42,023 nt of DNA from Acidimicrobiia bacterium (GTDB lineage: Bacteria; Actinomycetota; Acidimicrobiia; Acidimicrobiales; AC-14). The stretch's first letter is position 1, and each line of letters begins with the position of its first letter. The translations under genes and the position numbers were made by a program. The DNA lies in contig JAHFUP010000039.1 of the NCBI GenBank assembly GCA_023265025.1, positions 1 to 42,023 of the forward strand, in the 5' to 3' direction. Shown piece by piece: positions 8,569-35,633 of the stretch. A model generated the notes under the pieces. It had not been told where the DNA came from. It searched no databases and was given only the letters and a program-made list of their open reading frames with translations.

Positions 8569-8574
8569 AAGGAG
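8569..8574 (+). promoter_or_regulatory. Shine-Dalgarno upstream of an ATT codon
   Basis: AAGGAG lies 5 bases before an in-frame ATT at 8580. The reading frame upstream is closed by TAG just before 8540, and no ATG, GTG or TTG occurs in frame until TTG at 8628. Confidence 0.4.
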
Positions 8575-8579
8575 CCGTC

Positions 8580-9053: not shown

Positions 9054-9058
9054 CCCCA

Positions 9059-10054: not shown

Positions 10055-10056
10055 CC

Positions 10057-12900: not shown

Positions 12901-12925
12901 CCGTCATCCAGGCCGCACCGCCCGC

Positions 12926-12977
12926 GCAACTGGTGACGATCGAACCGGTCATAGCCTGTCGAACCGTCACCAGTTGC
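12926..12977. terminator. Perfect 13-bp inverted repeat between convergent genes
   Basis: GCAACTGGTGACG (12926-12938) is perfectly complementary to CGTCACCAGTTGC (12965-12977), with a 26-base loop that itself contains a short CGAACCGGT/GTCGAAC-type element. It lies between the stop of the DUF4012 fusion and the last codons of the convergent O-antigen-ligase-like gene, so it fits a bidirectional transcription end. No T-run follows, as is common in GC-rich actinobacteria. Confidence 0.6.
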
Positions 12978-14768: not shown

Positions 14769-14885
14769 GCTACGTTCGTCCGATCAGGGGGTGACTCCCC
14801 CACGTCGTACTATTGGCTGGAAATGGCGTACTCGGGAACAATGAGGGCGGAGACCTGGATGGGGACTTCGAGGTCGGGACCGAGC

Positions 14886-14891
14886 AGGAGG
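14886..14891 (+). promoter_or_regulatory. Shine-Dalgarno fixing the ATG at 14897
   Basis: AGGAGG ends 5 bases before ATG 14897 and overlaps an in-frame GTG at 14891, which rules that GTG out as start. About 75 bases upstream, TACTAT at 14808-14813 could be a -10 element for this gene, but I see no matching -35. Confidence 0.6.
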
Positions 14892-14896
14892 TGGGC

Positions 14897-15667
14897 ATGA
14901 CTCGACACGCCAGGCCATTGACGCTTCTGGCTGGAGCGCTCGCCGCCACGGCGTGCATCCTGGTCGGCGCCTCGCCATCGCTTGCCGCGCCGCCCTACCC
15001 GGCCGGCGCCCAGTCGACCGCCCTGGTCGGCGGCACGCCCCTCGTGCGGGCGATCTGCCCCGCTGGGAGCCCTGGGGCCCTCAGCGCCGGCACCTCCACC
15101 AAGGGCGGCGTGACCGTCGGCTCACCGGCCGGCGCCAGGTGTACCGCGCAATCGGCCGACGCCCAGGGCCTCTACTCGATCGCCGGCGCCACCCCGGTCC
15201 CACCCAGCCTCCGGTTCTCCGCCGGCTGCCAGAACTCCACCGGTCAGAACGGCGGGGCGGTCGACGTCCCCGCCGGTACCTTCGTCACAGGGATCGGTGT
15301 CGTGACCCAGACCACCCCGGTCGCCACGCCGAACACCCTCGTCACCTATCCCGGCGGTACCACGGCGATCCTGAACGAGGTCAGCATCGACCCCACCTCG
15401 GTCCTCCGCAACGCCATCCGGATCACCAGCGGGCCCAACAGCGGCACCATCATCGGCCAGGTCATCTGCGGGGTCCGGTACCCGCTCGCCGTGGACACGC
15501 CGTCCGCCGGCGAGGACGCGGCGGTCGCCGCTCCGGCGTCCCCGGTGGCCGACTCCGACGACTCCCTGAGCCTCCTGCTGATCGGAGGCGCCGTCGGCCT
15601 GCTGCTGTTGGTCCAGCTCCCGCTCGGCATGGCCATCCGCCGGCGCCGGAGCGCCTCCGCAAGCTAG
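14897..15667 (+). CDS. Secreted protein with C-terminal membrane anchor, unknown function
   Basis: The 256-residue product has a signal peptide (basic start, hydrophobic 8-25, likely cleavage after SPSLA at 26-30). A small-residue-rich extracellular domain follows, with four cysteines at 54, 82, 111 and 191, then a Ser/Asp/Ala-rich linker. It ends in a membrane segment (about 224-246) closed by IRRRRSASAS. That arrangement tethers the domain to the outer face of the membrane with a short cytoplasmic tail; there is no LPxTG sortase motif. I do not recognise the domain. The start is set by AGGAGG at 14886-14891. It is divergent from the metallopeptidase gene and ends 20 bases from the convergent DUF4012 gene. 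Confidence 0.75.
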   Translation: MTRHARPLTLLAGALAATACILVGASPSLAAPPYPAGAQSTALVGGTPLVRAICPAGSPGALSAGTSTKGGVTVGSPAGARCTAQSADAQGLYSIAGATPVPPSLRFSAGCQNSTGQNGGAVDVPAGTFVTGIGVVTQTTPVATPNTLVTYPGGTTAILNEVSIDPTSVLRNAIRITSGPNSGTIIGQVICGVRYPLAVDTPSAGEDAAVAAPASPVADSDDSLSLLLIGGAVGLLLLVQLPLGMAIRRRRSASAS

Positions 15668-15687
15668 CTAGGCTAGAGCGTCGCCGG

Positions 15688-18003
15688 TCAGCGCCGGCGG
15701 AGTGGGACCACCAGGGTGGTGTCGGCCTCCAGGCTGGTGGTCGAGACATCCTCCCGCCCCCTGGCCACCAGCGTCGACGTGATCTCGTCTGGGGCGACGA
15801 CGGGTTGGCGGTACAGGTCGAGCCGGTAGGCGTCGCTGCCCGCGGGCAAGCGTCCCGCCAGCCGCATCGTCACGGTGATCGCGCCTTTGGACGGGACGAC
15901 GACCCCCGTGGAGTAGACCCGCCGGCCGAGCTCGTCGGCCGCGTCCAGCACGACGGGGGCGCCGTCCAGCTGGCTGTCCACCAGCTGCCACGGCGTGTAG
16001 ACGGACAGGTACAGACGGTTGTCGCCGTCCGGCAGCGCGTCCCCGTAGACCTGGTTCCCGATGACGGTCTGCGAGAGGCCGGTGGCCGGCGCGTCGTTCG
16101 ACAGGGTCACCGTGACCGTCGCCTGGAGCCGGCCGCTGCCCGGGTCGAGCTCGACCCGGTAGCCGACGGACCGGCGCAGGAACCAGTCGATCTTGTTGGC
16201 GCTGGCGTTCTGGGTCACCAGGCCCAGGAAGTCGCCGGCGACGGGGGCGATCCGGCCGGAGGCGCCGATGTCCTCGAACATCCGCTGCTCGTCCGGGTGG
16301 GTGCTCGAGAGAAGGATGTGCTTGGTGCGGGCCGCCGGAGCGAGCGTGGCCAGTAGCTGCTGGGGGGCCGGGAGGGCGCCGCTGGTGAAGCGTTGCCAGG
16401 TGACCTGGGCCACGTCGCCGAGGAAGTCGATCCGCTCCCGGCGGTCGGCGACCACGTACTGGCCGTGGAGCATGACCTCCACCGCGTTGTCCGCGGTGAT
16501 GGGGACGGGCCAGCCGGCGACGTTGACCGGCCCGAGGAGGCGCAGGAACGCCGCCAGCCCGGCGGGATCCACGGCGAACACCCCGTCGACGGGCGCGCCC
16601 CCCGATTGGGGATAGAGGCCGGCGATGACCTGGGCGTCGGTCGGGAAGTCCGGGGACAGGTTGACGTTCGTCCACGCCGCCGCGGGCGAGAACCGACCGT
16701 AGCGGGCGGCGAAGTCCTCAGGAGCGACGAGCTGGCGGTCGTTTCGACCGGGCGCGTCGTCCAGCTCGGAGATCCGGCCGAAGCGGGTGAGGCTGAGCCG
16801 GCCGTTGTCGGCGGTGATCTCGCCGAAGTTGCCGATGAAGCCGCCGCCGGCCCGGGCCTCCGCCGGCGTCTGGACGGCCAGGAAGTACCGGCGGGGGCCG
16901 TCCCGTCCCAGCATGGCCGGGAGGAGAGGCAGCGCCCGGTTGAGCCGCTGGGTGGTTCCCTCGACCTTGACGACGCGCGCCAGCTCGGTGTCGAGCTTGT
17001 CCCGGAGCGGGGGCAGGAGCAGGGCCGTACGGGCGGACGCCAGGCGCCCACGGGCGCTCGTGAGCTGGCGGGCCAGGTCGGCGACGGGCGCGGCGATGGC
17101 CGCCAGCCGGTCGAGCGGCACCTGGCCGTCGGTCACCCGGATGTCGGTGAGCATCGGCAACCGCAGCGCACGCTCCCCGGTCGCAGCCAGCTCGTCTCCC
17201 GACACCGCGGCGGCGTGCAACACCCGCCAGTGATGGGCGACGACGGGCACTGCGGCCGCCGGCCGGGCCCACCAGGCCTCGAGGGTGCGGCGGGCGTCGG
17301 CGAAGTCGGACCGCGCCGACGCCAGCTTCGCCGCCGTCGCCTCCAGGTCGCTCTGCGGGTCGGTCGTCACGGCCGCGGAGGCGACGGCGAGGCCGGAGCG
17401 CAGGGAGTCGACGGTCATGAGGGCCGTGACCGCTCCACCGACCGCGCCCACCATGGCGAACGCCCCCAGGGCGAGGACGGTCCGGCCGACGAGGCGCCGC
17501 TCCCCCCGCTCGAGGCCGGCGACCGCCGACGCGAAGATCGGGACGAGAATGGCCGCGGCAGCGAGGGCGGTGAGCCCGTCGCCTCCCGGCGTGGTGAGTC
17601 GGAGCGCGGCCTGGACGACGAGGGCGCCGCCGGCCGCGTTGAGGATCGGGACGTCGTCGAGGACGCTGGCCAGCAGGAGCCCGGTCCCGGCGAGCGCCAG
17701 CGGGAGCGCCGACGAGCCCGTGCCCAGCGCCGCGGCGGCCAGGCCGGCGACCAGCATCAGCCGAGGGCTGGCCAGGGTGGCGGCGAACACCGATCCGGCA
17801 CCCAGCAGGACGAGCAGCAGGACGTCGAGCGGCACCCACCCCGTCGCCGAGCCGCCGGCGGCGATCGCGCCGGCGGCGGCGAGGCCGGCGAGGGCGGCGA
17901 ACAGCACGAAGGGGTCGCCGTCCCTCGACGCCGGCCGGCGCCGGACCAGCAGGGCGCCGGCCGCGAAACTCAACGGCTCGGCTGCCAGGTAGGCCAGGTT
18001 CAC
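15688..18003 (-). CDS. Second DUF4012 membrane protein
   Basis: The 771-residue product starts with about 240 residues of closely spaced hydrophobic segments (NLAYLAAEPLSFAAGALLV, VPLDVLLLVLLGAGSVF and others). A last membrane segment near TVLALGAFAMVGAVGG precedes a long extracellular DUF4012 region. The DUF4012 core RRYFLAVQTPAEARAGGGF and the WTNVNLSPDFPTDAQVI segment match the corresponding parts of the fusion protein at 10057-12900, so the two are paralogues with different membrane modules. GTG at 18003 is chosen because the frame upstream runs towards the kinase gene without another sound start. It lies 83 bases downstream of the HPr-kinase-like gene on the same strand and could share its transcript. 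Activity is unknown. Confidence 0.83.
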   Translation of the reverse strand: MNLAYLAAEPLSFAAGALLVRRRPASRDGDPFVLFAALAGLAAAGAIAAGGSATGWVPLDVLLLVLLGAGSVFAATLASPRLMLVAGLAAAALGTGSSALPLALAGTGLLLASVLDDVPILNAAGGALVVQAALRLTTPGGDGLTALAAAAILVPIFASAVAGLERGERRLVGRTVLALGAFAMVGAVGGAVTALMTVDSLRSGLAVASAAVTTDPQSDLEATAAKLASARSDFADARRTLEAWWARPAAAVPVVAHHWRVLHAAAVSGDELAATGERALRLPMLTDIRVTDGQVPLDRLAAIAAPVADLARQLTSARGRLASARTALLLPPLRDKLDTELARVVKVEGTTQRLNRALPLLPAMLGRDGPRRYFLAVQTPAEARAGGGFIGNFGEITADNGRLSLTRFGRISELDDAPGRNDRQLVAPEDFAARYGRFSPAAAWTNVNLSPDFPTDAQVIAGLYPQSGGAPVDGVFAVDPAGLAAFLRLLGPVNVAGWPVPITADNAVEVMLHGQYVVADRRERIDFLGDVAQVTWQRFTSGALPAPQQLLATLAPAARTKHILLSSTHPDEQRMFEDIGASGRIAPVAGDFLGLVTQNASANKIDWFLRRSVGYRVELDPGSGRLQATVTVTLSNDAPATGLSQTVIGNQVYGDALPDGDNRLYLSVYTPWQLVDSQLDGAPVVLDAADELGRRVYSTGVVVPSKGAITVTMRLAGRLPAGSDAYRLDLYRQPVVAPDEITSTLVARGREDVSTTSLEADTTLVVPLRRR

Positions 18004-18086
18004 ATCAGACGCCCGGATTCCGTGCCTTTCACCGTCACCTGCTCGCCAAGCTACTCGGCCGCACGAACCCCTTCGGCAGTTCCCGG

Positions 18087-18950
18087 TCAGTCCGGCATGG
18101 CGGCGAGGAGCTCGGAGATCAGGGCCTTGAAGCGTTCCCGGTCGGGCCCGAAGGTGACGCGGAGGACCGGCACCGAAGCCACCACGGACAAGTAGTCCTC
18201 GGCCAGTCGGCGCTGCGTCGACGGCTGGCGGGGGGTGAAGCACAGCGCGTGCCGAAGCAGGCCGGCGAGCGCCACACCGGACGAGAGCGATGCCGTCGTC
18301 GTTTCGCCCGCGTCGCCGCGCTCCAGGAGAATGACGCCTGCGAGTGGCAGGAGGTCTCCGGTGACGGCACGGCCGGGCGCCATGCCGGGTGCGGAGAGCG
18401 TCGCGATGAGCTGGGACGCAGTCTCGTCGAGGCGGAGCGCGGTGGGCAGCCGGACGGAGAGCGGTGACTCAGATTCGGTTCCGGTCGCGAACACGACGGC
18501 GTCGTCGGCCCACAGGGAGAATCCATGGCGTTCAAGCGCCGCGGCCGTCGTCGACTTTCCCGTCCCGGAGGTCGCACACAGCGCCACCACGCCGACCGAG
18601 GTCACCACCGCGCTGGCGTGCAGATGCTGGGCGCCCCGGTAGGTCATCAGCAATGGGGCAGCCAGGCGGTGGTACCCGTCGGTCACGGGCCCGGGCAAGC
18701 GGCCCGGCTCCGGCCAGGCGCTGGCCACCTGGTACCCGTCGCGGAGTGCGTATCGAGCGAGGCCTACGAGCTCGACGGAGGCGCCCGACGCATGGACCGC
18801 CGTGCGAGCCGCCGCGTTCCCATGCACATCGGGCCACTCGGTGCCACCATCGACCACCGGTCCGAGGCCGAGGTCCGGCGGTGCGGGATCCAGCCTGATG
18901 TCGAGCCCCGGCAGAGCGAGAGCACCGGGACCGCTGTCAACGTGGGTCAC
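18087..18950 (-). CDS. HPr-kinase-like protein of a lasso-type cluster
   Basis: The 287-residue protein resembles the C-terminal kinase domain of HPr kinase/phosphorylase, as seen in the lasso peptide tailoring kinases PadeK and ThcoK. It has HASAV at 111-115, a P-loop CATSGTGKST at 125-134, and WADDAVVF at 147-154 in the place of the acidic catalytic loop. PadeK phosphorylates the C-terminal serine of paeninodin. Here the candidate precursor ends in Leu, so the target residue, if any, would differ. GTG 18950 is preceded by GGAGTGG and is divergent from the nucleotidyltransferase gene, so the two probably share a promoter region at 18951-19053. A role outside peptide tailoring remains possible. 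Confidence 0.8.
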   Translation of the reverse strand: MTHVDSGPGALALPGLDIRLDPAPPDLGLGPVVDGGTEWPDVHGNAAARTAVHASGASVELVGLARYALRDGYQVASAWPEPGRLPGPVTDGYHRLAAPLLMTYRGAQHLHASAVVTSVGVVALCATSGTGKSTTAAALERHGFSLWADDAVVFATGTESESPLSVRLPTALRLDETASQLIATLSAPGMAPGRAVTGDLLPLAGVILLERGDAGETTTASLSSGVALAGLLRHALCFTPRQPSTQRRLAEDYLSVVASVPVLRVTFGPDRERFKALISELLAAMPD

Positions 18951-19053
18951 CTACCACTCCGGTCATCGACGGTTCGTTCGGGCGCCATGACGTTACGGCC
19001 CCTTGTCGCCCGACGACCGCCGCCGGCGCCCCACGACGTACCATGTGATCGCG

Positions 19054-19824
19054 ATGCTGGAGGGTGGGGAGCACCGGAAGGACCCACGGCTGTACACGCT
19101 GGCCGCCGCCGTCCATGTCACCTCGACGGTGCGCCGGATGGCAGTGGATCTCGCCGGGCTGGGGGTGCCGCTGATGGTCCTCCGTGGGCCGCCCGTGCAG
19201 CTCCGACTTCTCGGCGACGCTTCATCGTACCGGAGCGCCGACGTAGACCTCCTCGTCCCGGCCCACCACCACCGCCGGGTCTTCAAGCTCCTCCTCCAGG
19301 ACGGGTGGGACTTCTCGCCGGAAAACGGTGTGCTGTGGCGCCTCGACCGGGCGGCGGCGTTCACCAAGCGGGGCGTCACCGTCGACCTCCACTGGGGCCT
19401 GCATGCGCACACCGTGTCGGCCCGCCACCTTCGGCCGCTGGAGCGGGCGCTCTGGTTGGACGCCGCTCCTTCAGCCGACGGCTGGTGCGAGCCCCGCATC
19501 GAGCCCTTGGCGGTGTACCTCGCCGTTCACGGAGCGGCCTCGGGCTTCCACAAGCCCGAGTCACTCCTGCTGATCGGCGCCGCCGGCCGCCTGGTTTCCG
19601 ACTGGGTGGGAGTCGAGACGCTGGCCCGTCGCGCCCATGTCTGGCCGGCTGTCCGCCACGCCCTGGCTGCCGCCCAGGGAGACCGAACCGGGCCAATGCC
19701 TCCGCTGTTCGACGGGCGTGGCCGCCGGATCGCCAGTGCGGCCGGTCGGGAGGTGCGCGCCCGGCTCAGCAGGCCGGCGTTGCGGGCCGCGCTCCGGGTG
19801 GTGCGCTCCCGAAGGTCCGACTAG
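19054..19824 (+). CDS. Nucleotidyltransferase family protein (lasso-associated type)
   Basis: The 256-residue protein fits the uncharacterised nucleotidyltransferase family NTP_transf_5. VLRGPPVQLRLLGD (42-55) is followed by YRSADVDLLVP (59-69), with D63 and D65 as the expected metal-binding pair. VDLHWGLHAH further on matches the conserved third-acid region. Homologous genes accompany HPr-kinase-like genes in paeninodin-type lasso clusters, where their role is unknown. ATG 19054 is preferred; TTG 19003 and GTG 19045 are also in frame and none has a clear Shine-Dalgarno. The stop is 13 bases before the PqqD-like gene, so it opens the plus-strand operon. Confidence 0.78.
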   Translation: MLEGGEHRKDPRLYTLAAAVHVTSTVRRMAVDLAGLGVPLMVLRGPPVQLRLLGDASSYRSADVDLLVPAHHHRRVFKLLLQDGWDFSPENGVLWRLDRAAAFTKRGVTVDLHWGLHAHTVSARHLRPLERALWLDAAPSADGWCEPRIEPLAVYLAVHGAASGFHKPESLLLIGAAGRLVSDWVGVETLARRAHVWPAVRHALAAAQGDRTGPMPPLFDGRGRRIASAAGREVRARLSRPALRAALRVVRSRRSD

Positions 19825-19837
19825 CGTCGGCGAACCG

Positions 19838-20128
19838 ATGGGATACGTGCCACACCCCAACGTCGTCGCCCGCCGGCTCGACGACGCTACCGTCCTGGTC
19901 CACCTGGACACGAGCCGCATCTTCACCCTCAACCCCACCGGGGGCCGGATATGGGAGCTCCTGACCGGTGACGCCCAAAATCTCGACATCGCGGCGCTCG
20001 AGCGCATGCTCCGCGACGAATACCAGGTCGGCGACGACGATCAGCTTCATCGCGACGTCAGGACGCTGCTCCGCCAGTTGGAGGAGGAGCAACTCGTCGT
20101 CGACGCCGACCGGAACCCCTCCTGTTGA
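19838..20128 (+). CDS. PqqD-like RiPP recognition element (lasso B1)
   Basis: This 96-residue protein is of the PqqD family, the stand-alone B1 (RRE) component that binds a RiPP leader peptide and presents it to the processing enzymes. The pattern VLVHLDTSRIFTLNPTGGRIWELL (19-42), then a helix-turn region and RTLLRQLEEEQLV near the end, gives the expected beta-strands followed by winged-helix helices. The ATG at 19838 starts immediately before the family homology. Its stop overlaps the TTG start of the cyclase-like gene (TTGA), which indicates coupled expression and joint action with it. Confidence 0.88.
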   Translation: MGYVPHPNVVARRLDDATVLVHLDTSRIFTLNPTGGRIWELLTGDAQNLDIAALERMLRDEYQVGDDDQLHRDVRTLLRQLEEEQLVVDADRNPSC

Positions 20129-21969
20129 CGGAGGCGCCGGCGCGGTCGTGGTTCGTCCGCTGCGGAACTACGCCTTCCCGGGAAGGCATTCCCGCCCACA
20201 CAACCGTCGAAGGCAGCAGATCTCGGCGCTTTGAGGCGTACGCCGGCGACGCCAAGAACCCCACCGAGGTGCTCCGCGTCGCGGTCGAGGGCCCGATGGC
20301 GGTGGCGTTCGCCGGGTTCCTGTCCAACCGCCGGGACCTGGAGCGGCGCGTCAACGGCCAGGCCCCATCCACCGACGAGGCCGCCCTCATCCGGGGTCTG
20401 TACGCCCGCGGCGGAGTGGCCGCCCTCGCCGACCTGCGCGGCGGCTACGCCCTGGTCATCTGGGACGGTGCGCGAGACACGATCATCGCCGCCCACGACC
20501 CCGTCGGAACCCACCCACTGCACTGGGCCGTGTCAGGATCGACGTTGCTGATCTCCGACTCGACGGAGACGCTCCTCGCCCGTCCGGAGGTCTCCCGTGA
20601 CCTGAACCGGCTGGCGCTCGCCGACCACCTGCGCTGGCGTTGGCCAGACCCCCAGGAGACCTTCTTCGCCGCCGTGCGACGAGTCCCACCGGGCAACACC
20701 ATGACCGACAGCGGCGGGCAACGGGAGATGCGCCGGACGTGGAACCCCGCCCCGGAGCCGATCCAGTGGGCGTCGGCCCAAGAGGTGGAGGGCTTCGACG
20801 ATCTGTTTCGACGGGCGGTCGACCGGTGCTTCGAGGTCGGCCCCGTAGGTATCTCCCTGTCCGGGGGACTCGACTCGGTGACCGTCGCCGCCTTCGCGGC
20901 CGAGACGGCCGCCACGCGCGGCGTCCGGGCACCCGTGGCGCTCTCCATGGGGTTCCCCGACGTCGGCGTGAACGAGGAGGATATCCAGCGGTCGGTGGCC
21001 GCCCAATTGGGCTTCGACATGGTCATGATCGGGCTCGACGAGGCGGTCGCGCCGATGAACGTGCTCGAGGCGACCCTGGAGCTGGCCGGCACGTGGCCCG
21101 CCCCGATGTTCAACCCGTGGCTGGCCGCCTACGTCACGCTGGGGCACCTGGGTCGCCAGCAGGGCTGCAATGCCTTCCTGACCGGTGGCGGCGGCGACGA
21201 GTGGCTGTGCGTGAGCCCCTACATAGCCGCTGACCTGATGGCGAAGTTCGACGTCGCGGGGCTGTACCGGCTCCTGCTGGGAGCCAAGCGCTCCTATCAG
21301 ATGAGCCTGCCGAAGCTCCTCCGGACCTACCTGTGGGTCTTCGGTGTCCGTGCGCTGGGCCGCCGCGCGCTCGGCTCCGTCCCCCCGCTGCTGGCCTGGA
21401 GGGACCGGAGGGTACTCGGGCAACAGACACCTGGCTGGGTGGCGCCCGATCCCCAGCTCCGAAGGGCCATCGACGATCGATTCCAGCCGAGCGGTGCGCC
21501 CCGCAACTACTACCTGCGGGAACTCAAGGAGGGGCTGGAGACCTCCTTGGTCGCCCAGGAGCTGGAGGAGTTCTTCGAGTTGGGCCGGCGGATTCAGATG
21601 CCCGTTCTCCGCCCTTTCCTCGACCCGGACGTCATCGAGTTGCTGGCCCGGGTCCCTCCGGAGGTGCTCAGTCAAGGTGAACGAAGCAAAGCAATCGTGC
21701 GGGGGACACTTGACCGACGGTTTCCCGGGCTGGCTTTCAAGCAGCAACGCAAGATTCAGGCCATCCCCACGCTCCAGCGGATCTTGAAAGACCAGTTCGA
21801 CGCCCTGTGGGCATCAGTCGGCCCTCCGACGGCCCTCGCCGAGCTGGGCGTCGTCGATTTGGCCCGGCTGGATGTGGCGATCCGAGAGACCGACCGGGAC
21901 GCACATCGCCCGATGTGGAAATTCTTCATGTTAGAGTGCCTGGAGGTGTTCGCCCGTGCGCGGCTCTGA
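20125..21969 (+). CDS. Asparagine-synthetase-like lasso cyclase (C protein)
   Basis: The 614-residue protein has the asparagine synthetase B layout: a glutaminase-like N-domain (1 to about 200) and an ATP-pyrophosphatase C-domain with the PP-loop SLSGGLDS at 244-251. The N-terminus reads MTEAPARSWF, so the catalytic Cys2 of true glutamine-dependent synthetases is absent and ammonia is unlikely to be the nucleophile. This is as in lasso cyclases, which adenylate an Asp/Glu side chain and join it to the peptide N-terminus. TTG 20125 overlaps the PqqD-like stop. The precursor candidate begins 40 bases downstream. It contrasts with the canonical Cys2-bearing enzyme at 39263-41059. Confidence 0.88.
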   Translation: MTEAPARSWFVRCGTTPSREGIPAHTTVEGSRSRRFEAYAGDAKNPTEVLRVAVEGPMAVAFAGFLSNRRDLERRVNGQAPSTDEAALIRGLYARGGVAALADLRGGYALVIWDGARDTIIAAHDPVGTHPLHWAVSGSTLLISDSTETLLARPEVSRDLNRLALADHLRWRWPDPQETFFAAVRRVPPGNTMTDSGGQREMRRTWNPAPEPIQWASAQEVEGFDDLFRRAVDRCFEVGPVGISLSGGLDSVTVAAFAAETAATRGVRAPVALSMGFPDVGVNEEDIQRSVAAQLGFDMVMIGLDEAVAPMNVLEATLELAGTWPAPMFNPWLAAYVTLGHLGRQQGCNAFLTGGGGDEWLCVSPYIAADLMAKFDVAGLYRLLLGAKRSYQMSLPKLLRTYLWVFGVRALGRRALGSVPPLLAWRDRRVLGQQTPGWVAPDPQLRRAIDDRFQPSGAPRNYYLRELKEGLETSLVAQELEEFFELGRRIQMPVLRPFLDPDVIELLARVPPEVLSQGERSKAIVRGTLDRRFPGLAFKQQRKIQAIPTLQRILKDQFDALWASVGPPTALAELGVVDLARLDVAIRETDRDAHRPMWKFFMLECLEVFARARL

Positions 21970-21990: not shown

Positions 21991-22000
21991 GAGGAAGGGG
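21991..22000 (+). promoter_or_regulatory. Ribosome binding site of the precursor peptide
   Basis: GAGGAAGGGG ends 9 bases before GTG 22010. It is one of the clearest Shine-Dalgarno sequences in the window and supports translation of the small open frame that follows. Confidence 0.6.
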
Positions 22001-22009: not shown

Positions 22010-22156
22010 GTGTCGAGCCATGTACAGCAGCAGACCTGGGAGCGCCCGACGCTCACCTTTGAGGGGAACATCGAAGAGCTCGTCCTCGCCATCGCCGGGA
22101 AAGCCAGCGTGACCCCCGGCGACGTCCAGGAGAACCGCAAGGTCCTCGGCCTGTAG
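22010..22156 (+). CDS. Candidate lasso-type RiPP precursor peptide
   Basis: This 48-residue frame starts at GTG right after an in-frame TGA and ends at TAG 22154-22156. Residues 10-19 read WERPTLTFEG, which matches the lasso leader recognition motif Y-x2-P-x-L-x3-G with Trp for Tyr. The C-terminal part from residue 30 is GKASVTPGDVQENRKVLGL. If cleaved before Gly30, Asp38 falls at core position 9, allowing a nine-residue Gly1-Asp9 macrolactam and a ten-residue tail. The usual leader Thr at position -2 is absent (Ile28), so the cut site is a guess. Cleavage before Ala32 would give a seven-residue ring. It sits between the cyclase and exporter genes with a strong ribosome site, as a precursor should. 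No other small frame in the cluster has the motif. Confidence 0.72.
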   Translation: MSSHVQQQTWERPTLTFEGNIEELVLAIAGKASVTPGDVQENRKVLGL

Positions 22157-22200: not shown

Positions 22201-24012
22201 GTGTCGCCGCCGGTGAAGGGACGCGGGGGTCCCCGGCACCTCTTCACCACCATCCGGTCGGTCCTCGCCCTCACCTGGGAGGCATCGCCGGCGCTCCTGG
22301 CTACCACCGTGGCCCTCTCCATGGTCGCCGCCCTGATCCCGCCGGTCGTCGTATGGCTGGGCAAGCACCTCGTCGACATGGTCGCCCTCGGCCCGGCGTC
22401 GGGCCGGACCCGGGGCGAGGTCCTGCCGACCGTGATCGCCCTCGGCATCGCCGCCGCGGCCATGCGGGCGCTGGTCCCCATCCAGGGCCACCGCCAGACT
22501 CTGTTCGGCACGGTCGTCGAGCTCCACGCCGAGCGCCGGCTCTTGGAACGGGTGGCCGACGCCGACCTCGGCTGGTTCGACGACCCCGAGTGGCACGACA
22601 GGGCCGCCCGGGCGGCCCGCAACGTGAGCTGGCGGCCGGCGAGCATGGCCTACGCGGTCACCAACGTCGCCGGCTCCCTGGTCACCATGGCCGGCATGCT
22701 GGCCCTCCTCGTTCCCCTCTCGCCGTGGCTGGCCTGCCTCACCCTGGCCTCCGTGGTGCCACCCGCCCTGGCCCAGCGCCGCATGAGCCGCCACACCTAC
22801 GACTTCTGGCACCGGACCACGGCCGACGAGCGCCACCGCCACTACCTCCGGGATCTCCTCAGCCTGCCGGCGACGGCCATGGAGGTGCGGGCGTTCGGCC
22901 TCACCGGCCACCTACTCCGCCGCCACGCCGACGTCACCGGCGACCGGGTCAGGGCGCTTCGCCGCCTGCACGCCCGCGCCGACAGCCTGCTGGTGCTCAC
23001 CGCCACGGCCAGTGGTAGCGCTCTCGCCGCCGCCTACTGGCTGGTCGCGTCCCGCGGACTGGAGGGCTCCCTGACCGCCGGCGACCTGGCCCTGGTCATC
23101 GGCGCCTTCGCGGCGACATCGAGCCAGTTCGGCACCCTCCTCCGGTCACTCTTCGACATCAGCGAGAGCGCGACCTTCCTCGACGACTACTTCTCGTTCC
23201 TGCGTCTGGATCGCATCGTGCCCGTCGCCGCCGACCCCGTGCCGCTGCCCGCATCGCTCGACGACGGGCTGCGGTTCGACGACGTCTCGTTCACCTATCC
23301 GACGGGTGACGGGCCGGCGCTGGAGCACATCGACCTGCACATCCGGCCCGGCGAGCTGCTGGCCCTCGTCGGCGAGAACGGCGCCGGCAAGACGACGCTC
23401 ATCAAACTCCTCCTGCGCTTCTACGACCCAGACGGCGGCGCGGTGTCCCTCGGGGGCGTGGACCTGCGCCAGGCCGACCCGGCCGAGGCCCGCCGGCGGA
23501 TCGGTGTCCTGTTCCAGGACTTCATCCGGTACGAGCTCAGCGCCCGCGACAACGTCGGCCTGGGGCGGGTCGACCGGGAACCGACCGACGAGGCCACCCT
23601 GGCCGCGCTGCGGGCCGCTCGGGCCGATGACGTCCTAGACGACCTCGGCGGCCGGCTGGATGCGCCGGTCGGGCGTCTCTTCGAAGGTGGGCACGATCTT
23701 TCGGGCGGCGAGTGGCAGCGGCTGGCCCTCGCCCGGCTCCTGTTCCGCAACCCCGACATCTGGGTCCTCGACGAGCCGACGTCGGCCCTCGACGCCGAGG
23801 CGGAGGCGGCGATCTTCGCCAATCTGCGCACGATCCTGGCCGACCGCATCGGGATCGTGATCTCCCACCGGTTCTCGACCGTGCGCGTCGCCGACCGGAT
23901 CGCAGTCATGGCCGGTGGCCGAATCGTCGAGCTAGGCACCCACGACGAGCTGGTCGCCGCCGGCGGCACCTACGCCCGGCTCTTCGAGCTCCAGGCCGCC
24001 GGCTACAGGTAG
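22201..24012 (+). CDS. ABC exporter, fused permease and ATPase (lasso D type)
   Basis: The 603-residue half transporter has a six-segment membrane domain (to about 330). An ATPase domain follows, with Walker A GENGAGKTT at 391-399, the signature LSGGEWQ at 500-506, Walker B WVLDEP at 521-526 and the switch His at 556. There is no N-terminal C39 peptidase, so leader removal must be done by another protein, consistent with a B2 enzyme. GTG 22201 starts 44 bases after the precursor stop. It would export the finished peptide and give self-protection; export of a lipid or glycan intermediate is an alternative given the surrounding locus. Confidence 0.88.
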   Translation: MSPPVKGRGGPRHLFTTIRSVLALTWEASPALLATTVALSMVAALIPPVVVWLGKHLVDMVALGPASGRTRGEVLPTVIALGIAAAAMRALVPIQGHRQTLFGTVVELHAERRLLERVADADLGWFDDPEWHDRAARAARNVSWRPASMAYAVTNVAGSLVTMAGMLALLVPLSPWLACLTLASVVPPALAQRRMSRHTYDFWHRTTADERHRHYLRDLLSLPATAMEVRAFGLTGHLLRRHADVTGDRVRALRRLHARADSLLVLTATASGSALAAAYWLVASRGLEGSLTAGDLALVIGAFAATSSQFGTLLRSLFDISESATFLDDYFSFLRLDRIVPVAADPVPLPASLDDGLRFDDVSFTYPTGDGPALEHIDLHIRPGELLALVGENGAGKTTLIKLLLRFYDPDGGAVSLGGVDLRQADPAEARRRIGVLFQDFIRYELSARDNVGLGRVDREPTDEATLAALRAARADDVLDDLGGRLDAPVGRLFEGGHDLSGGEWQRLALARLLFRNPDIWVLDEPTSALDAEAEAAIFANLRTILADRIGIVISHRFSTVRVADRIAVMAGGRIVELGTHDELVAAGGTYARLFELQAAGYR

Positions 24013-24024: not shown

Positions 24025-24783
24025 ATGCTGACGTTGAAGCGCCGGCTCCCGCCGGAAATCAAGGCGGTGCTTCGCCGGGTAGGGGCGGAGATGACCGAGG
24101 CATGGTCGAGGCAGTATCGGCTGCAAGCCATCGTCGCCAGGCCGTTCCGGTCCTCGCTCGATCCGTTGGCGCGGATCTACGGGACAGACAAGTCCAGCCG
24201 ATCCCACGGCTACACGAGCCTCTACCGTGCGCATCTCGGTGCTCGCCGGCGTGACGTTCGCTGCCTCCTGGAGATAGGCATCGGAGGAACGACGTCACTG
24301 ACGGGCTACGACACGAGCGAAGGGGGTCAGTCGCTCCGAATGTGGCAGGACTACTTTCCGAATGCCCGCATCATCGGCATCGACATCGCCTCCAAGGTGG
24401 TCAAAGGACCGCGCATATTCACCGAACAGGGCAGTCAGAACGACACCCGCTTCCTCACGGATGTCGCTCACCGCCACGGGCCTTTCGACGTCGTGATCGA
24501 CGACGGGAGCCACCTCGGACCGGACGTCCGGATCAGTTTCGAGACATTGTTCGAGCACGTCGCTCCCGGCGGCGTCTACATCATCGAGGACCTGGCTGCG
24601 GCGTACCTCGCCTGGGGCGACATACGCGGCGGGCCCCCGGGTACTCCCGGCACGCAGATGGAGCTGCTCAAGGAGCTGACCGACCATGTCCTGAGACGCT
24701 GGTGGGACACAGGCGGCACTGGTCACCACCTCGCGGCGATGCACCTCTACGACCAGATCGCATTCCTCTACCGCACGCCTTGA
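24025..24783 (+). CDS. MycE/TylE-like SAM-dependent O-methyltransferase
   Basis: The 252-residue protein has the family pattern ARIYGTDKSSRSHGYTSLY (49-67), LEIGIGG (82-88), GQSLRMWQDYFP (101-112), GIDI (118-121), IDDGSHLGPD (158-167) and VYIIEDL (184-190). The acidic pairs in the last two are the expected metal ligands of mycinamicin VI O-methyltransferase (MycE) type enzymes, which methylate sugar hydroxyls. The ATG at 24025 lies 12 bases after the exporter stop, so it is on the lasso-type transcript. A sugar on the surface polymer is the more likely substrate; methylation of the peptide would be new for this family. Confidence 0.82.
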   Translation: MLTLKRRLPPEIKAVLRRVGAEMTEAWSRQYRLQAIVARPFRSSLDPLARIYGTDKSSRSHGYTSLYRAHLGARRRDVRCLLEIGIGGTTSLTGYDTSEGGQSLRMWQDYFPNARIIGIDIASKVVKGPRIFTEQGSQNDTRFLTDVAHRHGPFDVVIDDGSHLGPDVRISFETLFEHVAPGGVYIIEDLAAAYLAWGDIRGGPPGTPGTQMELLKELTDHVLRRWWDTGGTGHHLAAMHLYDQIAFLYRTP

Positions 24784-25052: not shown

Positions 25053-26519
25053 TTGCCCGTGGGGCTGGACGCCTGGGAGCACGCCGCCGCGGTTCGCGAG
25101 CTCGCCGCTCATCCGCTGCACCCCGCCCATCCGCTCCTCCCGGTCGACCGGCCACACCAGTACTTCTCCCCGTATCTCCTGATCGTCGGGATCGCGGCCC
25201 GGGTGCTGCGCCTGGATGCCATCACCGCCTTGGGCGCTGCCGGCATCTTCAACCTCGTGCTGCTGCTGGCCGGTCTTCGCCTGTTCGTCAACAGGCTCAT
25301 CGGCCGCCCGCATGTGGACTTCTACGCCCTGCTGTTCATGCTCTGTCTTTGGGGACCGGGTGCGTGGGCATACAGCGGATTCCTGCACTTCGGGGTGCTC
25401 TTCTCCATCCTGAGCTACCCGTCGACATTCGTGAAAGGGCTGCTCTTCTTCTCGCTCCTGGCCCACATCAACTACCTGGAGAGCGATCGCAAGCGCTGGC
25501 TGCTCCCGACCCTGGTCATCTCCGTCGTCACCGTTCTCACCCACCCCATCGATCAGGTGTCCTTGACCATCGGCCTGGTGGCCCTGGCTGTGACGCAGGT
25601 GGACAGCGCCCGGACGAAGCGCGTGATCGTCTCGCTCGGAGTAGTGGCTGCGGCCGTCGTCGTCTCGGTCGCCTGGCCGTACATGTCGATCACCCACATT
25701 GTGGTCAGCCCCGAAGCCGCCAGGTACCGGCGGGAGTTCCGGTCCGACGACGCCAAGCTCTACTCGCAGGTCCTCCCTCGCTTCGGGTTGGCGCTGCTCG
25801 TCGTGCCCTTCGTCTGGCGGCGCATGCGGTCGTGGCGAGGCGACCCCCTCGTCGTGATGTTCGCCGGGCTCCTGCTCCTCTACCTGTACGGCTACCTCGT
25901 CGGTGACCCGGTGTTCGGCCGCCTGGCGTCATCGCTGCAGGTCGTCGTCGCCATCGTCCTGGCCCAGGAGCGGGTGATGGTGCCGGACAGGGCTACCAGT
26001 CCCTGGACGCTCCACGGCGCCCGGGTGATGACCGTCGGTGTGGTGCTGGCCGGCTTCGTGCTCCTGCGGCAGGGGCTGACCGCCGCCCCACGCAGCGTCC
26101 TGGCCCGGGTGCCCTTCGGCGTTGCCCGAGGCTATGTCCTGCCGGACGAAGCGGAGGCGCTCGGCTTTGTGGGGCGTCATCATCAGGAGTACCCGGTCGT
26201 CTTCGCCAGCAGGGAGACCAGCCTCGAAATACCGGTGTTCGGGAGCAAGGTGGTAGACGTGAATCGGCCCCAGGCTTTCGTGGATACTCGCACCCGAGCG
26301 CTCGACGTCGCGGCCTTCTTCGACGCCGGCTCTTCCGCAGATCAGCGCCGGTCGATACTCGACAAGTATCACGCCTCACTCCTGGTTGTCGACGTCGTGA
26401 GTTTGCGAAAAGACCCAGGACGATATGCGCCACTCCTCGCGCTCGGACGGATCGCTGAGCAGAACGATCGATTCGTGTTCGTCGACCTCCGGGCACCAGC
26501 GCCGGGCGGCGACCGGTGA
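25053..26519 (+). CDS. Polytopic GT-C-like membrane protein, 5' end unclear
   Basis: From the only in-frame conventional start (TTG 25053) the product is 488 residues with about ten membrane segments and a soluble C-terminal domain of some 130 residues. It opens PVGLDAWEHAAAV, which looks like the acidic first outer loop of GT-C glycosyltransferases using lipid-linked donors, followed by a PHQYFSPYLLIVG segment. The same frame continues upstream without a stop to about 24853 and encodes a clear first membrane helix (YLLLSSVLALLAASQAL) that GT-C topology needs. The real start is therefore earlier, either CTG near 24902 or ATG 24847 followed by a frameshift. The 3' end overlaps the next gene by GTGA. 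The exact activity is unknown. Confidence 0.72.
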   Translation: MPVGLDAWEHAAAVRELAAHPLHPAHPLLPVDRPHQYFSPYLLIVGIAARVLRLDAITALGAAGIFNLVLLLAGLRLFVNRLIGRPHVDFYALLFMLCLWGPGAWAYSGFLHFGVLFSILSYPSTFVKGLLFFSLLAHINYLESDRKRWLLPTLVISVVTVLTHPIDQVSLTIGLVALAVTQVDSARTKRVIVSLGVVAAAVVVSVAWPYMSITHIVVSPEAARYRREFRSDDAKLYSQVLPRFGLALLVVPFVWRRMRSWRGDPLVVMFAGLLLLYLYGYLVGDPVFGRLASSLQVVVAIVLAQERVMVPDRATSPWTLHGARVMTVGVVLAGFVLLRQGLTAAPRSVLARVPFGVARGYVLPDEAEALGFVGRHHQEYPVVFASRETSLEIPVFGSKVVDVNRPQAFVDTRTRALDVAAFFDAGSSADQRRSILDKYHASLLVVDVVSLRKDPGRYAPLLALGRIAEQNDRFVFVDLRAPAPGGDR

Positions 26520-27817
26520 GCACGCCCGGCCCCGTCGCCCTCATCCCCTGGGGTGATGTCATGGAGGACTACCTCGAACCGCTCGGGCTCGAGTTCGCCG
26601 ACTTTGCCCGCATGACCGGAGGAGCGCTCTACGGCTACGTCGAGGCCTTGGCCGCCGCCGGACAGTCGTCGATGGTCATCTGCCTCTCGACTCGATTCGA
26701 GCGGCCCGTGTCACACGTGCACGTCCCGTCGGGTGTCAGGGTCATGGGCATCCCGATGACCTCGTTGTACCGCCGGCTGCACGGGCGAGGCGGGAGCCAG
26801 GCCGGGGGCGCATCGGGCGGGCCCGGAGCGGGCCGAGCCGGGCCGGCACTGCTGAAGTCGTCGTGGCGCACCGCCGCCCCCTACCTGCAGACGCCGCTGG
26901 TGGAGCTGGCTCGGCTGCTGCGCAAGGAGCGTTGCTCCGCCGTCATGTGTCAGGAGTACGAGTACGCCCGGTTCGACGCGCTCGTCGCCCTCGGGCGGTT
27001 CATCGGCATTCCGGTCTTCGGCTATTTCCAGGGTGGAGCGCCGCGCCGGTCGGCGCTCGAACCGGCAGTCCGGCCGATGGCGATGCGACTCGCGGCGGGG
27101 GTCGTCGTCGCCCCCGCTTCCGAGGCCGAGCGGGTCCAGACGCGTTACCGGGTGCGGAGGATAGCGAGGATCCCGAACCCGCTGGGCACCTCCGACCTCG
27201 TCCCGGCGGACCGCACCGAGGCCCGGGCCCGGTACGGGATTCCGCAGGACCACTTCGTGATCGCCTGGCACGGCCGGGTGTACATGGAACTGAAGGGGCT
27301 CGACGTCCTGCTCGACGCCTGGCGCGCGGTGGCCGGCGCCGGCGCCGGCCAGCCGGTGCACCTGCTCCTCGTCGGTACGGGGCCGGACGCCGCTGCGCTC
27401 CGGGCCCGCCTCGCCGGGTACCCCGCCACCGAGGTCACCTGGATCGCCGCGCACGTCATGGATCGGGCTGAGATCTGCGCCATGTTGTCGGCCGCGGACG
27501 TCTACGTGCTGAGCTCGCGGCGAGAGGGGTTCCCTATGGCCCCCCTCGAAGCGATGTACTGCGGTGTACCCGTCGTGGCCACCGACGTCAGCGGCATCCG
27601 GGAGATCCTCCCGGATGGTGAGCAGTCCGGCGGGATCGTGGTCCCTATCGGCGATGTCGACGCGATGGCCGACGCGCTGGCCCGGTTGCTGACCGATCCC
27701 CCGCTTCGGGCCACGATGGCGCGCGCCGCCCGGGCCCGGGCGGAAGATGGCTTCTCGCCGGCCGGCATCGGTGAGCAGCTGGTGTCGCTGCTTCAGTCCC
27801 GGTCGACCGCGCCCTGA
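26516..27817 (+). CDS. GT4 glycosyltransferase
   Basis: This 433-residue GT-B retaining glycosyltransferase has an N-domain with a GGALYGYVEAL loop (35-45). The C-domain has IAWHGRVYMELKGLDVLL (about 250-267) and the sugar-nucleotide binding pair E337/E345 in REGFPMAPLE. A Gly/Ala-rich insertion (about 93-112) is a variable loop and nothing more. The GTG at 26516 overlaps the upstream membrane protein. Its end overlaps the convergent flippase gene by 25 bases. The donor is unknown; the role in surface glycan assembly comes from the family and the context. Confidence 0.88.
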   Translation: MSTPGPVALIPWGDVMEDYLEPLGLEFADFARMTGGALYGYVEALAAAGQSSMVICLSTRFERPVSHVHVPSGVRVMGIPMTSLYRRLHGRGGSQAGGASGGPGAGRAGPALLKSSWRTAAPYLQTPLVELARLLRKERCSAVMCQEYEYARFDALVALGRFIGIPVFGYFQGGAPRRSALEPAVRPMAMRLAAGVVVAPASEAERVQTRYRVRRIARIPNPLGTSDLVPADRTEARARYGIPQDHFVIAWHGRVYMELKGLDVLLDAWRAVAGAGAGQPVHLLLVGTGPDAAALRARLAGYPATEVTWIAAHVMDRAEICAMLSAADVYVLSSRREGFPMAPLEAMYCGVPVVATDVSGIREILPDGEQSGGIVVPIGDVDAMADALARLLTDPPLRATMARAARARAEDGFSPAGIGEQLVSLLQSRSTAP

Positions 27818-29277
27818 TCGACTGGGTTCCGCTGCCGGGCCCCCCGCATGGCGCCGAAGATCCCGCGGAGCTCTCCCCAGAACGGGCGGTCGAGGATCGA
27901 CACGGCGAGCAACCAGGCCGCGCCGCCCACCGCCAGACCGGCGACCGCGGCCACCGTTGGCGAGGGGATCGCCAGGACGACGGCGCCGGCGGCTGCGCCG
28001 GCGACGAGCGCGGCCGGCGCCCGCTCGAGAATGATCCGGAGGCACAGCCACGGAGACAGTCCGACGGAATGCAGGGCGGCGCCCCAGAGCGGCAACGGCA
28101 CCGCGACCGCGGCCACCACCATCGCGCTGGCGCCGGTGATCCCGAAGGGGCCGACGACCAGCGCCACACCGACGATGAGCACGATGGCGGACAGGGCCGT
28201 CGCGCCGGCGTTCAGCCGAGGCCGCCCGGCGGCCATGAACAGGGCCACCGCCGGCCCCGTCACCGCACGGATGAAGCCTGCGACCGCCAGCACGCGCAGC
28301 GGTCCGACGGCGCCGAGCCAGCGGGGACCGAGAAGGCCGAGCACGAGGTCGTGGGCCAGCGGCACGGTGATCGCGAGGATCACCGCGCTGAGCCCGCTCG
28401 CCACCATCAGGCTGCGAGCGAACATCGCGTCACCACCGTCATCGCCGGCCTCCAACATGCGGGAGAGCGTCGGGAACAGGACCTTCTGGATGGTCTCGGA
28501 CACCTCGGTGACGGGGAGGTGGCCGATGCGGAAGGCCAGGCGGTACAGCCCCAGAGGACCGGTGCCGGCGATGCGCCCAACGATCAGGTCGTCGGCGTTC
28601 GTCGCAGCGAACCAGCACGCAGTCGTCACCGATATCCATCCGCCGAATGAGAGGTAGTCGAGCAGCTCCCGCCGGTCGAACCGGATGGCCGGCCGGAAGC
28701 CGGCGATGAGGTGGCTGCAGAAGACCCGGAAGCAACCGCCGAGGACGGTGGCGCCGGCCAGGCCCCACGCCGAGTGCGTCGCCAAGATCAGCCCAACGGT
28801 AAGCAGGAGCTCCGCTGTGGCGGCGGCGAACTCGAGTCGAACCTGTGGCGTGAGATCGACGTCTCGGGCCCGGAGCCACCCTGCCGGGCTCTGGAGCGCC
28901 GACAGGAGGGGCACGAAGGCGACCAGACGCATGAGACCGATGGTCGAGGGGGCGTGCAGGAGCGTCGCTGCGGTCGGCGCAAGGGCCACGCCTGCGCCGG
29001 TCAGGACCGCACCGCGAACGATGAGGGCGGTCCACATCGTCTGCGCCGCTCGAAGGGTCACGTTCGGCCGCTGGACGAGCGCATACCGAAGCGACGTATC
29101 GGTGAGGGCGTCGATCGTCGCCATGGCGCCGGCGGCAAGGGCGAACCGACCGACCTCGGATGGAATGAGCAGCCGGGCGAACACCACGGCGCGCACGATG
29201 GCGATGACCCGCACGAACAGCGAGGCGACGAACGCGTACGCACCTGACCGGACGACGCGACTCCGGCGGTCGCTCAT
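27793..29277 (-). CDS. Wzx-like oligosaccharide flippase
   Basis: The 494-residue product has about 12-14 hydrophobic segments and begins SRVVRSGAYAFVASLFVRVIA. It has the LLIPSEVGRFALA, GPLGLYRLAFRIGHLPV and TLSRM segments typical of the polysaccharide biosynthesis/MATE-like flippase family. It would move the undecaprenyl-linked repeat unit across the membrane before polymerisation by the protein at 12967-14160. ATG 29277 is taken because family homology starts within 10 residues; the open frame upstream is arginine-rich and unrelated. It may be the last gene of the minus-strand run 32238-27793 with the three GT2 genes. Confidence 0.88.
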   Translation of the reverse strand: MSDRRSRVVRSGAYAFVASLFVRVIAIVRAVVFARLLIPSEVGRFALAAGAMATIDALTDTSLRYALVQRPNVTLRAAQTMWTALIVRGAVLTGAGVALAPTAATLLHAPSTIGLMRLVAFVPLLSALQSPAGWLRARDVDLTPQVRLEFAAATAELLLTVGLILATHSAWGLAGATVLGGCFRVFCSHLIAGFRPAIRFDRRELLDYLSFGGWISVTTACWFAATNADDLIVGRIAGTGPLGLYRLAFRIGHLPVTEVSETIQKVLFPTLSRMLEAGDDGGDAMFARSLMVASGLSAVILAITVPLAHDLVLGLLGPRWLGAVGPLRVLAVAGFIRAVTGPAVALFMAAGRPRLNAGATALSAIVLIVGVALVVGPFGITGASAMVVAAVAVPLPLWGAALHSVGLSPWLCLRIILERAPAALVAGAAAGAVVLAIPSPTVAAVAGLAVGGAAWLLAVSILDRPFWGELRGIFGAMRGARQRNPVDQGAVDRD

Positions 29278-29311
29278 TGCCGCCGGCGTCGCATTCGGAC
29301 TCCCCCGACGA

Positions 29312-30280
29312 TCACCGACCGCCGGCAGCCGACAGCGCCGACGCCAGCCAGGGCGGAGGAACGGTGGGCGGGGCGTCCCGACCGACCCACCGCCGAATGG
29401 CGGCCAGGACCGGTTCACCACGGCCGGCCAGGACAATCGCCCGGACAGACAGGAGAGGATCGCGACATGCGAGCCCCAGACGCCAGTATGCGGACGCCGC
29501 CTGTGACCAGTCGCCGGCCGACCGATGACGGGAGGCCCGCCACCGGAGCCACTGCGTCCGGTTGAACACGACGCCTTCCCGGGCCCGGGCCGGGGCATGC
29601 TTGTCGTCGAACCGGCCGAGCTCCTCGGCCAGGGCCTGCTCGTCACGGTGCATGTTGCCGGCGTGGAGGGTGTAGGCGATAAGCCGCTCGGGAACCGGCA
29701 CGCCGGCGGCCACCGCACTCAACCGGATGTTGAAGTCCCAGTCGGCCAGCGTCCCGAACGTCTCGTCGAAGCCCCCGATGGACCTGACCACATCGGCGCG
29801 GACAAGGACGTTGGAACAGCCGCATGGGATCACGTCGGACTCGAGGAGCTGGCGGTGGAGGCTCATCCCCGGTCGGGTCGGCGCATCGTCGGCGAACAGG
29901 ACCTCGCCGCGATCATCGATGACCACACCGTCGGTGAAGGCGAAGTCGGCACCCGACTCCCGAATCCGGTCGAGTTGCGCAACGAGCTTGGTCGGCGCCC
30001 AGAAGTCGTCGTCGTCGAGAAACGCCAGCCATTCACCCTGCGATGCGGCAATCCCGGAGTTGCGGGCCACGGCCACCCCACGCGGCGTCGCATGGCGGAT
30101 GAGTCGGACCGTGTCGGCCGCAGGCTGCGACACAGGAACCTCGGAACCGTCGTCCACCACGACGACTTCTGTGGCCACGCCCTCCTGACGGCCCGCCGTC
30201 GCCAATGTGCGGGCGAGGCGTTCCGGACGATCCCTCGTCGGGACGATGACCGACACCTCGACCGGAGGCCCGCCCTCCAT
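29312..30280 (-). CDS. GT2 glycosyltransferase, tandem copy B
   Basis: This 322-residue family 2 glycosyltransferase has VSVIVPTRDRPERL (9-22), VVVDDGSE (40-47), metal-binding DDDD at 89-92, and a substrate-side CGCSNVLVRADVV followed by GGFDE and ADWDFNIRL. The C-terminal part is helical and tryptophan-rich (RTQWLRWRASRH). The same order of motifs, including the IPCG-S-N block and WDFNIRL, occurs in the neighbouring gene, so the two arose by tandem duplication. The ATG overlaps the upstream stop by one base (TGATG). Expected to act at the cytoplasmic membrane face; the donor is unknown. Confidence 0.88.
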   Translation of the reverse strand: MEGGPPVEVSVIVPTRDRPERLARTLATAGRQEGVATEVVVVDDGSEVPVSQPAADTVRLIRHATPRGVAVARNSGIAASQGEWLAFLDDDDFWAPTKLVAQLDRIRESGADFAFTDGVVIDDRGEVLFADDAPTRPGMSLHRQLLESDVIPCGCSNVLVRADVVRSIGGFDETFGTLADWDFNIRLSAVAAGVPVPERLIAYTLHAGNMHRDEQALAEELGRFDDKHAPARAREGVVFNRTQWLRWRASRHRSAGDWSQAASAYWRLGLACRDPLLSVRAIVLAGRGEPVLAAIRRWVGRDAPPTVPPPWLASALSAAGGR

Positions 30281-31245: not shown

Positions 31246-31266
31246 GGTGCCGAGGGTAGCGGCAAC

Positions 31267-32238: not shown

Positions 32239-32287
32239 CAGGCGGAAGGGTAGGGTGTCCCGTCGCCTCCCGGTCGCAGATGTCACA

Positions 32288-35624: not shown

Positions 35625-35633
35625 AATCGACGA

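Follow-up and report, generated by a model that had tools for sequence, protein, structure and literature searches.

A 42,023-nucleotide contig from an Acidimicrobiia bacterium (the window) holds a 48-residue open reading frame between the genes for an asparagine-synthase-like cyclase and an ABC exporter. Is this frame a lasso-peptide precursor and, if so, where would its leader be cut and which residue would the nearby kinase modify? Our best reading, which we hold at a probability of roughly three in four, is that it gives rise to a phosphorylated lasso peptide of class II, closed into a ring from Gly30 to Asp38, that belongs to a new sub-family. For the term class II (no cysteine) and for what B1, B2, C and D do, we follow excerpts of PMC10368454.

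A short gene between a lasso-type cyclase and an ABC exporter

The frame lies in a run of genes ordered kinase (minus strand), NTP_transf_5 protein, B1, cyclase, precursor, ABC exporter and methyltransferase-like gene, with the following coordinates.

18087-18950, minus strand: K, HprK-like peptide kinase, upstream and divergent (PF07475 1.5e-4 and TIGR04352 3.1e-6, both below cut-offs)
19003-19824, plus strand: N, NTP_transf_5 nucleotidyltransferase-like protein (PF14907 2e-17)
19838-20128, plus strand: B1, PqqD-like leader-binding protein (PF05402 8.5e-16; Ile at the place of BsfB1 Tyr37)
20125-21969, plus strand: C, asparagine-synthase-like lasso cyclase (SGGLDS loop; PF00733 2.8e-26)
21991-22000, plus strand: putative ribosome-binding site, purine-rich GAGGAAGGGG, called from the sequence
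22010-22156, plus strand: A, lasso-type precursor gene (GTG start, 48 aa; top match among 423 window frames to the relatives' profile)
22037-22066, plus strand: leader recognition motif W10-x2-P13-x-L15-x3-G19
22201-24012, plus strand: D, ABC exporter (PF00005 2e-32; 34% identical to the exporter of L017)
24025-24783: methyltransferase-like gene (matches under Pfam cut-offs)

The frame starts with GTG at 22010, encodes the 48 residues MSSHVQQQTWERPTLTFEGNIEELVLAIAGKASVTPGDVQENRKVLGL and closes with a stop that ends at 22156; it begins 40 bases past the cyclase stop (21969) and ends 44 bases ahead of the exporter GTG (22201). Sequence and coordinates agree with the original prediction, which had singled out this frame, and the ribosome site that it proposed would correspond to the purine-rich stretch ahead of the GTG. 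Third-position GC content (0.90, with 0.86 for the cyclase and 0.93 for the exporter) resembles that of the neighbours. The W-x2-P-x-L-x3-G leader motif, with Trp10 in the place of Tyr, was also found as described. The pattern [WY]xxPxLxxxG occurs in only this one of the 255 window frames of 20-100 aa and in 3 of the 423 window frames of all lengths, and it arises in 0.03% of residue shuffles of the precursor peptide. No NCBIfam or Pfam model matched the window precursor at E values up to 1, and NCBIfam matched none of the nine relatives' precursors tested (L049 was left out). With ten tested members missed by NCBIfam and the window's own by Pfam, such clusters are likely to be under-annotated.

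The frame is conserved at the protein level in distant lineages

Ten relatives (L016, L017, L018, L030, L031, L043, L044, L045, L046 and L049) were compared, which with the window make 11 members. They come from Thermoleophilia, Acidobacteriota and one deltaproteobacterium; L016 belongs to genome G352, of the Solirubrobacterales and hence of the Thermoleophilia. Each of them has, between its cyclase and kinase genes, a short frame that carries the leader motif; six of these frames are placed as follows.

L016, 9737-9886: precursor
L017, 10150-10449: precursor
L018, 1690-1866: precursor
L030, 1340-1483, minus strand: precursor
L031, 3290-3442: precursor
L049, minus strand: precursor

The precursors of L018, L045, L046 and L049, whose cores differ, were chosen by leader motif and position. 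A profile of all ten relatives, built without the window, ranked the window frame first of 423 (E 3.4e-7; runner-up 0.054), as did a profile restricted to the seven that come closest in their cores (L016, L017, L030, L031, L043, L044 and L045, six with Gly-Lys and one with Asn-Lys), from which the window was likewise excluded (E 1.9e-8; runner-up 0.0043). The original prediction had named lack of protein-level conservation as the outcome that would overturn it, and these profiles point the other way. They also bear on whether the frame is a chance opening with a look-alike motif, as might be suspected where 255 frames of 20-100 aa share one window: the two E values and the same gene position in ten of ten relatives refute this reading, to which we assign a negligible probability. 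The frame is a genuine gene and almost certainly encodes a lasso-peptide precursor.

A tree of 18 cyclases separated the 11 clade members from seven others with support 100/100; the seven came from the collection scan, L024, L027 and L028 were not part of the tree, and its root is a drawing choice. The cyclase is rare. A scan of an 84,980-species collection returned 13 loci, three of them of the precursor's clade, and scans of 399 genomes of G352's class and 396 genomes of G844's phylum added three and four further clade loci. It was found in 2 of 396 genomes of the window's phylum, the window genome and G352, in 1 of 350 sampled genomes of the window's class at E 1e-80 (the window genome itself) and in 1 of 336 in the phylum sample around G843 at E 1e-100 (G843 alone), all of these being samples searched at strict thresholds that distant members may escape. 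Among 99 genomes near the window's own, E 1e-20 gave seven matches, the window's gene and six weak ones (L004-L009, 75-93 bits). Plasmid records held no cyclase at E 1e-30 and no L044 precursor at E 1. The strings GGGGKLT, GGGGKLS, DPGEPRKP and GGGKLTP did not occur in the literature searched. The supplement of PMC10368454 or Kretsch 2023 may list family members; that supplement lists Acidobacteriaceae precursors with Ile or Val at position -2.

The relatives share the neighbouring genes as well as the frame. By tblastn, kinase homologues lie directly past the precursor in 10/10 relatives, B1 homologues are found in 9/10 (the L018 stretch begins inside the cyclase), B2 homologues in 9/10 (eight directly past the kinase and one, in L053, upstream of the cyclase) and nucleotidyltransferase homologues in 7/10, one of them weak at E 0.002; the stretches are unequal in length, which makes absences soft. 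No B2 homologue was detected by tblastn in the 17.9 kb of L017. The window has a candidate B2 at a distance from the other genes.

8628-9053, plus strand: candidate B2 leader peptidase (TTG start; Cys/His motifs CLIRAL and GHAWV; pathway role predicted)

Frame 8538-9050, in which 8628 is the first usual start, matched PF13471 above the cut-off (46.5 bits). This candidate lies 11 kb upstream of the cyclase, no B2 gene adjoins the lasso genes, and two further PF13471 proteins above the cut-off are encoded elsewhere in the genome.

A real precursor could also serve a kinase- and leader-guided RiPP pathway in which the asparagine-synthase-like enzyme makes an unthreaded macrolactam or another amide. 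Threading is beyond sequence evidence, and the cyclase finds its best NCBIfam model in a generic asparagine synthase, its match to the lasso cyclase model NF033535 (6.7e-32) falling under the curated cut-off. However, the genes present, A, B1, B2, C, K and N (and D), are those of the Bradymonas sediminis bsf cluster (BsfA, B1, B2, C, D, K and N; excerpts of PMC10368454), and other clusters for phosphorylated lasso peptides are likewise marked by kinase and nucleotidyltransferase genes: those of paeninodin and pseudomycoidin (PadeK, PsmK and PsmN; excerpts of PMC9266682) include a kinase gene, as here, and that of pseudomycoidin a nucleotidyltransferase-like gene too. We regard an unthreaded product as very unlikely.

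Leader and B1 have changed on both sides of a suspected contact

Lasso leaders are described as having 17 residues from motif start to core and, as a rule, Thr at -2, to which BsfA, with Ile(-2), was the first natural exception found by experiment according to its authors in 2023, so that the rule is not absolute (excerpts of PMC10368454). The missing Thr was one of the oddities listed in the original prediction, and Ile28 indeed occupies -2 if Gly30 is counted as residue 1; Trp then stands at -20, and YxxPxL at -17 to -12 is absent. The long gap between motif and core that it also listed stands, amended to three residues beyond the canonical length.

These features recur across the family. 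All 11 members have the motif's Trp and Gly, found with search patterns that required W, Y or F (one also L or I) and G, and later W. The places between them vary, with Pro in six members, Met in four and Thr in one at the Pro place, and Leu in nine, Ile in one and Ser in one at the Leu place; the conservation of W/Y-P-L-G expected in relatives was largely borne out, with Trp and Gly in 10/10, Pro, Met or Thr at the Pro place and Leu, Ile or Ser at the Leu place. The slot 15 residues past Trp (W+15), where the canonical Thr(-2) would be, holds Val, Leu, Ile or Met in 11/11 and never Thr.

A B1 tyrosine, equated with BsfB1 Tyr37, is suspected to contact Thr(-2), and it is not conserved among Bradymonadales (excerpts of PMC10368454). 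At the aligned position the clade's B1 proteins have Ile in eight cases, Phe in one and Val in one (n=10), the cyclase-adjacent of two PqqD-like hits being used for L053. The comparison proteins of L022-L027 keep Tyr in 6/6. A search that required Thr found canonical precursors in L019 and L023-L027, with Pro and Thr in the usual places and Tyr as the opening aromatic residue in every case, and none in L020, L021 or L022. The Erythrobacteraceae loci among these resemble the window in having a PqqD-like B1 and a cyclase near a short precursor, and L023, L026 and L027 also gave HprK-like hits. They differ in that Tyr opens the motif, with Thr at Tyr+15, Gly at Tyr+17 and an eight-residue ring, and in that the B1 Tyr is kept.

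L023, 9705-9833: Erythrobacteraceae precursor (Y..P.L...G)
L024, 9731-9859: Erythrobacteraceae precursor (Y..P.L...G)
L025, 9764-9898: Erythrobacteraceae precursor (Y..P.L...G)
L026, 9743-9871: Erythrobacteraceae precursor (Y..P.L...G)
L027, 9704-9835: Erythrobacteraceae precursor (Y..P.L...G)

Within the scan, then, both sides of the Thr(-2)/B1 Tyr contact are altered together, and the 11-cluster clade in which both partners have changed stands beside canonical clusters that keep both. As a counterpoint, BsfB1 keeps Tyr37 beside Ile(-2). The clade offers a natural set for studying how B1 and B2 pick the cut and what phosphorylation of the ring does.

The canonical precursor of the acidobacterial locus L019 (10589-10816; YTVPRLKDYGTVAELTR-GGAGTTLD) lies past a more distant cyclase and an HprK-like gene.

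A predicted nine-residue ring and the position of the cut

The following features are predicted in the core.

22097-22153, plus strand: predicted core Gly30-Leu48 (GKASVTPGDVQENRKVLGL), placed from the conserved Gly-Lys...Asp
22097-22123, plus strand: predicted nine-residue macrolactam ring Gly30-Asp38 (Gly-Lys with Asp at 9)
22106-22108, plus strand: predicted target of phosphorylation, Ser33 at position 4 of the core (analogy: Ser3 of BsfA)

Described lasso rings comprise seven to nine residues (excerpts of PMC10368454), and Gly30-Asp38 has an acid at a distance of 7-9 from the putative core N terminus. The spacing on which the ring was originally proposed proved weak by itself, and we rejected it as evidence, since a G-x6/7-[DE] pair turns up somewhere in 61% of residue shuffles. 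It is conservation that carries the assignment: 7/11 members combine Gly-Lys with an Asp at 9, and they come from Actinomycetota, Acidobacteriota and a deltaproteobacterium. Lys occupies core position 2 in 10/11 members and is preceded by Gly in eight, among them L046. In L046 (Gly-Lys), as in L018 (Thr-Lys) and L045 (Asn-Lys), Asp stands at 8, and counting from the residue before Lys places Asp at 8 or 9 in 10/11 members. L049 has no Lys at core position 2 and reads GATGTLGD from W+17. A Gly and an Asp nine apart, expected in relatives if the ring was real, are thus found as Gly-Lys...Asp at 1-9 in six of ten, and the other four could close eight-residue rings. The linker varies in length, with the residue before Lys at W+18, +20, +22 or +26.

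The leader register predicts a cut three residues ahead of the ring register. A canonical B2 cut 17 residues past Trp would leave a product that starts AIAGKASVTPGD..., as several relatives would start GGGGKLT..., and the hydrophobic W+15 slot does point to this earlier cut: Val, Leu, Ile or Met there in 11/11 fits both the group of precursors with Ile/Val(-2) (excerpts of PMC10368454) and the Ile-for-Tyr exchange in B1, and L018, L030 and L049 would have an acid at 8 or 9. But in 8/11 members, the window among them, no acid would fall at 7-9, and five members would have A, I, Q or E as their first residue. The first acid of the window would lie at position 12, so that a second protease would have to trim three residues or the ring would exceed any lasso ring described. 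We consider a real precursor with the canonical cut unlikely. On the ring geometry across members, we favour the cut at Gly30 with moderate confidence from the alignment, and for this core, less one water, we predict a neutral mass of 1949.07 (singly phosphorylated, 2029.04). The canonical cut would raise these values by 255.16, the mass of Ala-Ile-Ala, to 2204.23 and 2284.19 Da.

A kinase that may act inside the ring

The window kinase has the motifs LHAS, GTGKS and ADD; the conserved His, GK[ST] and Asp-Asp were recognized by eye in it and in 9/10 relatives (the print of L047 missed the region). Ten clade kinases, all but L047, match residues 1-199 of BsfK over 41-151 residues at 30-56% identity. 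BsfK phosphorylates Ser3 in the ring of the linear precursor (excerpts of PMC10368454), and by analogy the clade's kinase may act inside the ring. A C-terminal Ser, the target in paeninodin and pseudomycoidin (excerpts of PMC9266682), was considered and set aside, as 0/11 members end in Ser; the C-terminal Leu48 that had seemed odd in the window reflects this general trait. Two residues past the core Lys (position 4), 8/11 members have Ser or Thr, L031 and L046 having Gln and Gly there, and in the L043 core the Thr at position 4 is the sole hydroxyl residue. Given these counts, the lack of a C-terminal Ser and the lone Thr of L043, position 4 would be the best candidate target if the kinase acts on the core. 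On sequence comparison, the oddities first listed for the window are traits common to the whole family.

Proposed pathway and known systems

The sequences show the frame, its conservation, the gene linkage, the conserved ring ends and the clade-wide lack of the leader Thr and the B1 Tyr; we infer every chemical step of the following pathway. B1 (19838-20128) would grip the leader at Trp10-Pro13-Leu15, and the HprK-like kinase would phosphorylate the linear precursor, most likely at Ser33. A B2 peptidase, most likely that of 8628-9053 acting in trans, would cut off the leader before Gly30. The cyclase (20125-21969) would bond the amine of Gly30 with the side chain of Asp38, closing the ring around the tail, and export would fall to the ABC protein (22201-24012); a possible role for the NTP_transf_5 protein is decoration of the phosphate. 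Against this reading stand the distant B2 with two more PF13471 proteins elsewhere in the genome, the missing B2 in the L017 stretch, the lack of a family-model match, the absence of the system from the other sampled genomes of the class, a Trp-core distance of 20 rather than 17 and the variant cores (L018, L045 and L049, and at position 4 L031 and L046).

The closest comparison is bsf (excerpts of PMC10368454). As in the window, Ile replaces Thr(-2) and there is no C-terminal Ser, and its kinase, assisted by B1, modifies a ring residue of the linear precursor, Ser3, as we predict for a ring residue here. In contrast to bsf, the window motif opens with Trp rather than Tyr, the gap from motif to core is 20 rather than 17, and the predicted ring has nine rather than eight residues. 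Further differences are a core that starts with Gly-Lys, a hydroxyl residue at position 4 and, in B1, Ile in the place of BsfB1 Tyr37. For phosphate in the ring and for a penultimate residue other than Thr, BsfA and BsfK are an experimental precedent. The acidobacterial cluster 482.1 from a soil metagenome (excerpts of PMC9064862) also has B1, kinase, B2, C and short precursor genes, and its authors predict Leu or Ser in place of Thr at -2; its kinase is annotated as aminoglycoside-phosphotransferase-type, unlike the one here, and the likeness is one of description only.

The odd signals common to the family suggest that the group directs its cutting and phosphate-adding enzymes differently from textbook lasso peptides. 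One tentative and rather doubtful explanation is that the cut is no longer set by a Thr in the penultimate place, a constant number of residues after the motif, the specificity of the peptidase having moved from the leader to core residues 1-2, where Lys at position 2 is the most frequent feature of the cut, and the phosphate being placed on ring residue 4. It is weakened by BsfB1, whose Tyr beside Ile(-2) means that the two need not change together. If it is true, the fact that Actinomycetota, Acidobacteriota and a deltaproteobacterium have a core in common would suggest that they share a target and are not in an arms race.

Genomic surroundings

The lasso genes sit within what looks like a polysaccharide locus (window positions 1-18243 and 25053-41802) that encodes glycosyltransferases, Wzy- and Wzx-like proteins, an AsnB-like protein (39263-41056) and two DUF4012 proteins (37% alike), of which one also has a fused GT4 domain. 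Most relatives (8/10) have B2 directly past the kinase, whereas the window's candidate B2 stands alone amid these polysaccharide genes, which makes the window's cluster a scattered one. Polysaccharide-like genes were found near 6/10 relatives (168 kb) and in 2/20 other stretches of the same genomes (276 kb), using polysaccharide genes of the window and three from the relatives themselves as queries and, as controls, contigs C1 and C2, many of them short; an AsnB query was dropped, as it matches cyclases, and an epimerase query was in the wrong frame, with nine stops. We treat a link between lasso genes and the polysaccharide locus as a lead only.

The deltaproteobacterial contig carries a second HprK-like gene (L017 16174-17076, minus strand) and a second cyclase-like frame (G843:C103:4193-5713), and this pair near the first lasso cluster is perhaps a second system. 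In the acidobacterial locus L053, upstream of the cyclase with its own B1, a second PqqD-like hit (2239-2971) adjoins the B2 homologue, and the locus may hold two B1 proteins.
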